Of a DNA stretch of 64,000 nucleotides, positions 20,294 to 21,664 are shown one piece after another. Numbering within the stretch: position 1 is the first letter of the stretch; each line of letters begins with the position of its first letter. Below the pieces are notes generated by a model. The model did no database searches. It was not told the DNA's origin and saw only the letters and a program-made list of their open reading frames with translations. Position numbers and translations under genes: made by a program. The stretch is from Pseudomonas sp. PSB18 (GTDB taxonomy: Bacteria; Pseudomonadota; Gammaproteobacteria; Pseudomonadales; Pseudomonadaceae): contig NZ_NOIN01000003.1 in NCBI RefSeq assembly GCF_014596565.1, positions 558,001-622,000 on the forward strand, read 5' to 3'.

Positions 20294-20327
20294 AAAAAAA
20301 CGCCAGCCCTGAGGCTGGCGTTTTTTT
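20294..20327. terminator. Bidirectional terminator between nadC and the DUF6388 gene
   Basis: Perfect stem with A7 on one side and T7 on the other (CGCCAGCC-CTGA-GGCTGGCG). It can end both convergent transcripts. The last base touches the stop codon of the opposing gene. Confidence 0.9.
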
Positions 20328-20632
20328 CAGACCACCAGATTATTCATCTCGCAGTACTCATCCCAATCCACTCCCAGCACCTCGGCAGCCTCCTTGTGCA
20401 AGGCAAGACGCTGCGCCTCGAACTCCTCAGGCGTGCTGGTGTACTTGAGCGTCAGCTCCCAAGGCTGCAAGCCCTGGGCTTCGGCCTCGTCTTCGAAAGC
20501 CCACTGGATCTGGTCCTTCTGCTCGTCGGTGCTCAGGTTCCTGATTTCTTCCAGTAACTGAGGCGTGTCCAGGGCGTATTTGCGCAGCGCTTCTTCGTGT
20601 CTGGCTTCTTGGGTCAGTTCTTTAGCCGTCAT
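20327..20632 (-). CDS. DUF6388-like small acidic protein
   Basis: This 101-residue soluble protein is strongly acidic (EEIRNLSTDEQKDQIQWAFEDEAEAQ) and probably all-helical. I recall close relatives across Pseudomonas under the label DUF6388, with no known function. ATG 20632 begins the conserved MTAKELTQEARHEEALRKY; an in-frame extension upstream to 20764 looks non-coding. There is no signal peptide. It is convergent with nadC and shares its terminator. Confidence 0.75.
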   Translation of the reverse strand: MTAKELTQEARHEEALRKYALDTPQLLEEIRNLSTDEQKDQIQWAFEDEAEAQGLQPWELTLKYTSTPEEFEAQRLALHKEAAEVLGVDWDEYCEMNNLVV

Positions 20633-20930
20633 GTCGTTCTCGCTGATCGAAGGAATGGAAGATGGGACTGGATCATCAAGGATCTCTCTGACACAGAACC
20701 GCTGGCAGCGCGGTTTTCCTGGTCCTTGGAACCATTCGTGGATCATTTGAAAACTGCTGGGCAATGCTCATGCAGGCAACGAATATAGGACGTTTTGCCG
20801 ATGATTTACATGGCTCTTTACATCTGCCGCACAAAAACCTCATGCCCTGGTACGGAAGAGGCCAAGGAACATCTGTCGGAATCCCAAGTCATAGCGATGT
20901 GCCATATCGGCACTTCATAAGGATTCTGTG
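20633..20930. other. Divergent intergenic region, no gene seen
   Basis: About 300 bases separate two divergently transcribed genes of unknown function. The base composition is less GC-rich than its surroundings, as expected for promoters, but I cannot place a convincing -35/-10 pair, RNA or repeat here. Confidence 0.5.
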
Positions 20931-21476
20931 ATGCGCAGCTTTCCAACGTTAACGTCTATTCGACTGGTTACCGCAACCCTGCTACTCGGCAGCCTGGCAT
21001 TGACCGGCGCCGCGCAAGCGGCAGTTGAGATCTCGTCCAATTTTCCAGAGCCATCCGATGAGATCTCGGCCCTTCGCAGCTCATTTGGCAACGACGTCTT
21101 CTACAAAACCGGTATCAGCATCGATAACTTGAAGGACATGCAGCAAGCCGCCAAGGCCAACGCCATCGAACTGGAAACCCAGAAGCGCACCCTCGCCGAG
21201 CAGGCCCGCCAGATCGAAGAGCTCAAACGCAACAGCGGTTCCAGTTCCAACTCCAGCGGCCGGGAAATTGAAGAGCTCAAACGCACGGTCAAGGAACAGG
21301 AGCGCGACCTGAACGACCTTGGCAAGCAAGTGGAAGAGCTCAAGCGTAATAGCGGCTCCAGCTCGAGTTCGAACAACAGCGAAATATCGACACTGAAAGG
21401 AAAGATCAACGATCAGGACCGCGAGATGGATCAGCTCAAGCGTACCGTCGAGGAATTGAGCAGGAAGGTGAAATAA
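20931..21476 (+). CDS. Secreted coiled-coil protein with duplicated Ser/Gly-interrupted module
   Basis: I do not recognise a named family. The 181-residue product has a clear signal peptide (LVTATLLLGSLALTGAAQA, cleavage near residue 33) and so is probably periplasmic. After a short N-terminal segment, the rest is a heptad-rich coiled coil. It contains two copies of EELKRNSGSSS (near residues 98 and 139), each followed by a Ser/Asn-rich patch and then more heptads. The start could be GTG 20928 or ATG 20931; I prefer ATG because AAGGA lies seven bases upstream. No neighbouring gene explains it. It may be a periplasmic spacer or structural protein, which is inference only. Confidence 0.8.
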   Translation: MRSFPTLTSIRLVTATLLLGSLALTGAAQAAVEISSNFPEPSDEISALRSSFGNDVFYKTGISIDNLKDMQQAAKANAIELETQKRTLAEQARQIEELKRNSGSSSNSSGREIEELKRTVKEQERDLNDLGKQVEELKRNSGSSSSSNNSEISTLKGKINDQDREMDQLKRTVEELSRKVK

Positions 21477-21491
21477 GGAGAGAGGAGATCT

Positions 21492-21564
21492 TGCCCGAGA
21501 CAGGAATCGAACCTGCGACCTTCGCGTTACGAGTGCGCTGCTCTACCGACTGAGCTACACGGGC
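21492..21564 (-). tRNA. tRNA-Thr (anticodon CGT)
   Basis: A 73-base cloverleaf: acceptor GCCCGTG with CTCGGGC, anticodon loop CTCGTAA giving CGU, T arm GGTTCGATTCC, discriminator A. CCA is not encoded. It closely resembles E. coli thrW. Confidence 0.95.
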
Positions 21565-21572
21565 GGTGAGCT

Positions 21573-21601
21573 AACCTAGCATCCAGCCCGTGACCAGGCA
21601 A
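21573..21601 (-). promoter_or_regulatory. Possible promoter of tRNA-Thr
   Basis: On the minus strand TTGCCT, 17 bases, then TAGGTT, eight bases before the tRNA. The -10 is weak, but the spacing and position are right. Confidence 0.45.
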
Positions 21602-21627
21602 CCTGTGCCACAAGGATTTTCCCCACA

Positions 21628-21664
21628 CAGCAAAACGCCCCGAACCAGTCGGGGCGTTTTGCTG
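21628..21664 (-). terminator. Terminator of pnp
   Basis: A 16-base perfect stem (CAGCAAAACGCCCCGA and its inverse) around a five-base loop, ending in TTTTG. It lies 24 bases after the pnp stop. Confidence 0.85.

Follow-up and report, generated by a model that had tools for sequence, protein, structure and literature searches.

A hinged, exported coiled-coil protein with a variable number of rods in Pseudomonas: a candidate periplasmic tether

Introduction

What might a small exported protein do in the bacterial envelope when it is built from coiled-coil rods joined by serine-rich hinges, and when the number of those hinges differs from one species to another? The question is raised by a gene in a 64,000-nt stretch of the Pseudomonas sp. 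PSB18 genome, referred to here as the window, whose product is carried by soil Pseudomonas bacteria. A first-pass annotation of this DNA had described a secreted coiled coil interrupted by repeated Ser/Gly hinges. The gene, its product, its homologues and its upstream region are considered in turn below.

The gene and its surroundings

An open reading frame encodes a protein of 181 residues from an ATG, with an in-frame GTG at 20928 and a Shine-Dalgarno-like AAGGA at 20919-20923 ahead of the start. On one side of the gene are nadC and a gene for a DUF6388 protein; tRNA-Thr(CGT) and pnp lie on the opposite side. No exporter is among the neighbours identified, which are nadC, DUF6388, DUF1631, tRNA-Thr and pnp.

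20931-21476, plus strand: whole gene of the exported coiled-coil protein, 181 residues (open reading frame; dN/dS)
20327-20764, minus strand: gene of the DUF6388 protein, the neighbour in the nadC arrangement

The dN/dS ratio was 0.10-0.18 in five pairs, indicating purifying selection on the gene; one value above 1 for the signal peptide rests on few changes. The protein has one match in its own genome, and its closest named relatives are from P. corrugata DSM 7228 (94%) and P. mediterranea (91%). The stop codon lies only 15 nt from tRNA-Thr(CGT), which has the opposite orientation (window 21476-21664). A perfect 14-bp inverted repeat, found by eye past the tRNA gene (21630-21643/21649-21662), resembles a two-way terminator. 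Because this repeat stands beyond the tRNA, the mRNA of the coiled-coil gene may run antisense through the tRNA-Thr gene.

The first-pass annotation knew of no family for the protein, and the searches agree with it. No curated family exceeded its cut-off among the matches listed from Pfam and NCBIfam (best 25 of 48 and best 25 of 33, respectively), the best Pfam match among them being SlyX, at 24.7 bits against a cut-off of 30. The N-terminal part gave a Pfam match at E<=0.01 in one of 23 members, which was judged to be chance. No structure in PDB or BFVD (viral structures) was matched by Foldseek at E<=0.001, head and tail included; by sequence, the best PDB match was keratin (E 0.005), a coiled-coil similarity. 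None of the titles listed in a literature search dealt with the protein.

Signal peptide, head, rods and hinges

The protein is composed of a signal peptide, a small head and three coiled-coil rods, with two Ser/Gly/Asn hinges between the rods. All of the following parts are on the plus strand.

20931-21020, plus strand: Sec signal peptide, residues 1-30, cleavage AQA|AVE (sequence, by eye)
21021-21119, plus strand: head, residues 31-63, with a predicted beta hairpin at 44-51/54-63 (AlphaFold; D43 conservation)
21120-21227, plus strand: rod 1, residues 64-99, Gln84 and Gln91 at d (heptads, alignment, AlphaFold)
21228-21263, plus strand: hinge 1, residues 100-111, RNSGSSSNSSGR (hinge rule, AlphaFold)
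21264-21344, plus strand: rod 2, residues 112-138, four heptads, Gln123 at d (heptads, alignment, AlphaFold)
21345-21383, plus strand: hinge 2, residues 139-151, RNSGSSSSSNNSE (hinge rule, AlphaFold)
21384-21473, plus strand: rod 3 and C-terminus, residues 152-181, Gln162 at d, end LSRKVK (heptads, alignment, AlphaFold)

In 100 of 101 homologues, an A/V/S-x-A motif stands in the stretch where it would be expected, and the Sec signal fits a location in the periplasm or export beyond it. The predicted hairpin head, with strands at 44-51 and 54-63, is absent from the first-pass annotation; the AlphaFold block that contains it (residues 31-70) has pLDDT values of 77-92. AlphaFold, run on monomers, places helices at 64-101, 110-142 and 148-180, and pLDDT falls below 50 at 104-108 and 143-148, so that the helices are broken at the hinges, as that annotation had described. 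For a relative of 344 residues (L073), the prediction is a chain of seven helices with low-confidence joints at the hinges, although this model is weak (pLDDT 62, pTM 0.19).

Heptad statistics were taken over 260 rods from 86 homologues and compared with shuffles fitted in the same way. The a/d hydrophobic excess was 0.79, against 0.27 (sd 0.12) in the shuffles, and 216 of the 260 rods were better than all 50 of their own shuffles. The coiled-coil character claimed earlier is thus upheld. Position a is V, I or L in 89% and position d is L in 63% and Q in 28%, while positions e and f of these rods are basic (K 49%, R 60%). Middle rods have 26-27 residues, equal to four heptads, in 81 of 91 cases. 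The second d is Gln in 179 of 185 four-heptad frames past residue 100, the frames having been chosen by hydrophobic pattern. At each hinge of the window protein, the spacing between the flanking a positions is 18 residues (95-113 and 134-152), which is out of heptad phase, and the rods are therefore separate segments. V or I at a combined with L at d is a signature of parallel dimers. Given V/I/L at a and Leu or one Gln at d, the pattern suggests that the four-heptad rods form a dimer.

Residues conserved at 90% or more among 58 aligned homologues include D43, Q91, Q123, K99-R100 and L137-K138-R139, and, at the C-terminus, L176, K179, V180 and K181. The last residue is Lys in 95 of 101 homologues; it is R, Q or H in five unbroken ones, and the sixth exception is a frameshifted copy (L064). 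The chain ends in KVK in 79 of 86. Such an end on a coiled-coil rod, together with the envelope-stress type of promoter-like element described below, would be consistent with an Lpp-like linker whose C-terminal Lys is covalently joined to peptidoglycan by L,D-transpeptidases. This reading is very unlikely: a lipobox is lacking, Cys is absent from the window protein and from 91 of 101 homologues, and the terminal Lys is replaced not only in the five unbroken homologues but also, by R, in relatives from a sister genus.

Hinge number varies between conserved ends

The internal duplication claimed in the first-pass annotation is supported. EELKRNSGSSS occurs exactly at residues 96-106 and 135-145, in two copies and no more; no exact repeat in the mature part is longer than these 11 residues, and shuffling this part 2000 times never yielded one longer than 6. 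For a 26-nt reference, three further copies were found in the DNA, at 69-85% identity, and the duplication is thus not recent.

A copy number that may vary between strains had also been suggested; variation is observed between species, with one genome each. Among 101 distinct homologues, 76 have two hinges; zero were counted in two, one in 11, three in five, four in one, five in two and six in four, with the caveat that the hinge rule undercounts diverged hinges in L084 and L089 and fuses two in L176, for which four were counted and five are seen by eye. The homologues range in length from 109 to 347 residues. Proteins that are close over their first 100 residues can differ in hinge number: L052 (one hinge) and L008 (two) are 91% identical there, L073 (six) and L078 (five) 87%, and L069 (six) and L178 (three) 78%. 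Judged by eye, the units of L176/L177 are of another type than those of L073/L083, which suggests more than one origin of the expanded forms. A tree built on nadC from 64 syntenic rows, in which 22 of 61 forks are open, requires at least eight changes of hinge number, one of them due to the frameshifted L064. This gene copy (in genome G205) may represent either real decay or a sequencing error.

Where do the additional units lie? The terminal units, first and last, can be aligned by position, and it is the middle units that are missing from shorter forms. Thus, a conserved head and tail bracket a variable array, and the ends keep their place whatever the unit number. DNA identity reaches at most 88% between units inside L073, whereas units at corresponding positions in L073 and L083 share 85-95%. 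Slippage within Ser codons was considered as the sole cause of the variation and rejected, the hinge Ser codons being mixed at eight loci; this mixture makes recombination of whole units seem likelier than slippage alone.

The spread from zero to six hinges, the repeated changes on the tree, the position-specific identities and the loss of middle units would all be expected if array length were selectively neutral, with interchangeable rods filling the space between two functional ends and with recombination between repeats letting their number drift. This reading is possible but rather unlikely. Each unit closely preserves rod length, heptad pattern and the core Gln, and two hinges are found in three-quarters of the homologues (76/101), both of which argue against it.

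The first-pass annotation had further described a rigid rod with flexible joints. The rod-and-hinge build is supported, but 'rigid' overstates the case for the long forms. At a helix rise of 0.15 nm per residue, the predicted helices total 104 residues (~15 nm) in the window protein and 229 residues (~34 nm) in the six-hinge L073. The usual periplasm is narrower than ~34 nm, and a rigid ruler across it is therefore unlikely for the long forms. The same excess over the periplasm could point to a surface or matrix fibre, that is, a protein that exits the cell and acts in adhesion or biofilm. Ser-rich linkers and length variation, both present here, are common among surface proteins. A role outside the cell is nevertheless judged highly unlikely: a Sec signal alone is visible, an anchor domain was not found in the window protein, and the neighbours identified include no exporter.

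A conserved promoter-like element upstream

The bipartite motif GGAAC-N17-GTCATA stands upstream of the gene and is absent from the first-pass annotation.

20866-20894, plus strand: ECF/AlgU-type promoter-like element, GGAAC (20866-20870), N17, GTCATAG (20888-20894) (conservation)
20899-20913, plus strand: inverted repeat GTGCC-ATATC-GGCAC, just past the -10 box and near the expected transcript start (conservation)

The pattern (G)GAAC-N16..18-GTCnTA was found in 82 of 86 distinct upstream regions, with N17 in 80 of these. At further loci, GGAAC-N16..18-GTCnTA was found in 12 of 15, and ATCATA replaces GTCATA in the other three. When the regions are aligned on the -10 box, GGAAC is conserved at 98-100% per base and is followed by a mostly poorly conserved spacer and then by GTCATAGC. 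The DNA ahead of the start codon is conserved, whereas its reading frame is not; a translated upstream leader was ruled out, since the conserved DNA lies in differing frames between species.

Exact GGAAC-N17-GTCATAG is a single site in the 6.17-Mb genome, with no second exact site found there. With one mismatch allowed, the genome scan gave 20 matches, against 52 for a reversed control pattern; the element is thus supported by conservation and not by rarity. For a pattern spanning the -10 box and start site, up to three mismatches gave 56 genome matches against 28 for the reversed control.

The published AlgU consensus promoter is GAACTT-N16/17-TCtgA (PMC10651043). Compared with it, the window element, GAACAT-N16-TCATA, keeps the spacing, the GAAC and the TC..A, and differs at one -35 base. 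AlgU itself is encoded in the genome (TIGR02939, 323 bits against a cut-off of 236), along with six weaker ECF-like matches, and the region upstream of the genome's own algU contains, by eye, GAACTT-N16-TC, with the same spacing as the element of the coiled-coil gene. At position five of the -35 box, 80 of 82 regions carry A or C, in contrast to the T of the AlgU consensus. Because of this deviation and of the weaker ECF-like genes, an ECF factor other than AlgU may use the candidate promoter.

As to the inverted repeat, TGCC-N4..6-GGCA was found in 68 of 86 upstream regions. It is mostly invariant, so covariation says little, and it may be either a 5'-terminal mRNA-stabilising stem-loop or an operator.

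A sigma-E-type element in front of a gene for flexible coiled-coil arms with basic e and f positions would also suit a Skp-like periplasmic holdase chaperone made under envelope stress. This is the least likely reading of those considered here, since no Skp/OmpH family appeared among the matches listed (best 25 of 48 and best 25 of 33), and since a changing arm length would have to leave the cavity intact.

Distribution, loss and relocation

Homologues exist outside the source strain. Of 298 genomes sampled from the genus, 76 were matched in a single-sequence search (E<=1e-5), a count that takes in the genome of the window itself; a profile of the N-terminal part (E<=0.001) likewise matched 76 of 298. 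A profile of the expanded form matched 79 of 397 genomes at a strict limit of 1e-20. An order-wide profile search matched seven of 293 genomes, two of which are the window's genome and a congener. The credible relatives outside the genus are two short, hinge-less proteins from a sister genus (L100, L101), which end in R; GAAC-N16..19-TC was not found within 200 nt upstream of their genes. Three further candidates from this search (L102-L104) were judged on reading to be chance matches, and L102 resembles a CpoB-type protein.

In all, 98 loci were fetched. Twelve proteins are present at two loci, mostly as the same record in two collections, and distinct sequences are used for the protein counts. 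In 76 of the 98 loci nadC lies upstream, and in 65 of these tRNA-Thr lies within 100 nt of the stop. In the other 22, none of the four neighbour proteins sought was found in the fetched stretch, and the gene sits elsewhere. The promoter-like element is kept in 19 of these 22, and gene and element therefore appear to travel together. In a separate group (L087, L091-L096) the gene is near tRNA-Leu(TAA) instead of tRNA-Thr. As both sites lie close to a tRNA gene, a shared insertion route may be hinted at. An origin from a mobile element or phage was rejected: tblastn searches of 72,556 plasmid and 50,697 phage records found nothing at E<=1e-3. In PHROGs, eight families were matched at E<=0.01, consisting of coiled coils of unknown function or tape-measure type.

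Twenty genomes with no match to the coiled-coil protein were searched for DUF6388, which was matched in 13, and four such sites were read. In L128 (genome G016), the gene is absent from the interval between DUF6388 and tRNA-Thr, while a GGAAC box, together with the first part of the spacer, persists before the tRNA. This looks like a clean, recent gene loss. In L129-L131, neither gene nor element is present at the site. The gene is thus dispensable, given the 222 of 298 genomes with no match and the apparent loss in the close genome L128. Two DUF6388 matches apiece were seen in seven of the 20 genomes searched.

A proposed role

How can these features be combined? We tentatively propose, from the sequence features described above, an envelope-stress-induced periplasmic tether, dimeric and adjustable in length by its number of rods; dimer, periplasmic location, use of AlgU and tethering are all four what we infer. 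The gene would be expressed upon release of an AlgU/sigma-E-type ECF sigma factor under envelope stress. The small protein would then be exported by Sec and would dimerise through its short parallel coiled-coil rods. The N-terminal hairpin head and the basic LSRKVK end would cap a series of four-heptad rods with Ser-rich hinges between them, and the number of rods would set the reach of the flexible tether, which would most likely bridge or space two periplasmic envelope components. A more specific version, in which four-heptad rod-plus-hinge cassettes are added or removed between the fixed ends to match the distance between envelope layers, with one buried Gln in each rod holding each unit of the dimer in register, is unlikely. 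The promoter-like element also flags an uncharacterised gene that, on the grounds of this motif, may be a candidate member of the AlgU regulon in these pseudomonads.

Comparison with known systems

What distinguishes this protein from known coiled-coil proteins? Weak coiled-coil similarity to SlyX (PF04102) was found at residues 111-150 of the window protein, but the match stays under the family cut-off, and SlyX is without an export signal. Like CpoB/YbgF, in which a signal peptide is followed by a coiled coil and then a flexible linker, the window protein has a coiled coil after its signal peptide and then a flexible linker. Unlike CpoB/YbgF, it reaches only 13.5 bits for TolA_bind_tri, against a cut-off of 30.1, and no tetratricopeptide-repeat family was among the best 25 of 48 Pfam matches, in which the two rows named 'TPR' are nucleoporin TPR coiled coils. 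SlpA of Deinococcus radiodurans is reported to be an exported trimeric coiled coil that links envelope layers and has an outer-membrane barrel and SLH domains (PMC9388160). The window protein differs from SlpA in that the barrel and SLH domains were not found in it.

There is a parallel in build with Lpp/OprI, likewise a small envelope coiled coil, and most homologues of the window protein share its C-terminal Lys. Lpp is a trimer, whereas the a/d pattern of the window protein suggests a dimer. The window protein also differs from Lpp in having no lipobox Cys at its cleavage site and in having hinges between its rods, and its homologues, unlike Lpp/OprI, vary widely in length. What determines and adjusts the spacing of Gram-negative envelope layers has been studied largely by means of Lpp, which has a fixed length; a natural series of one protein with zero to six hinges, behind a likely envelope-stress promoter, would supply ready-made length variants with which to probe the importance of reach.
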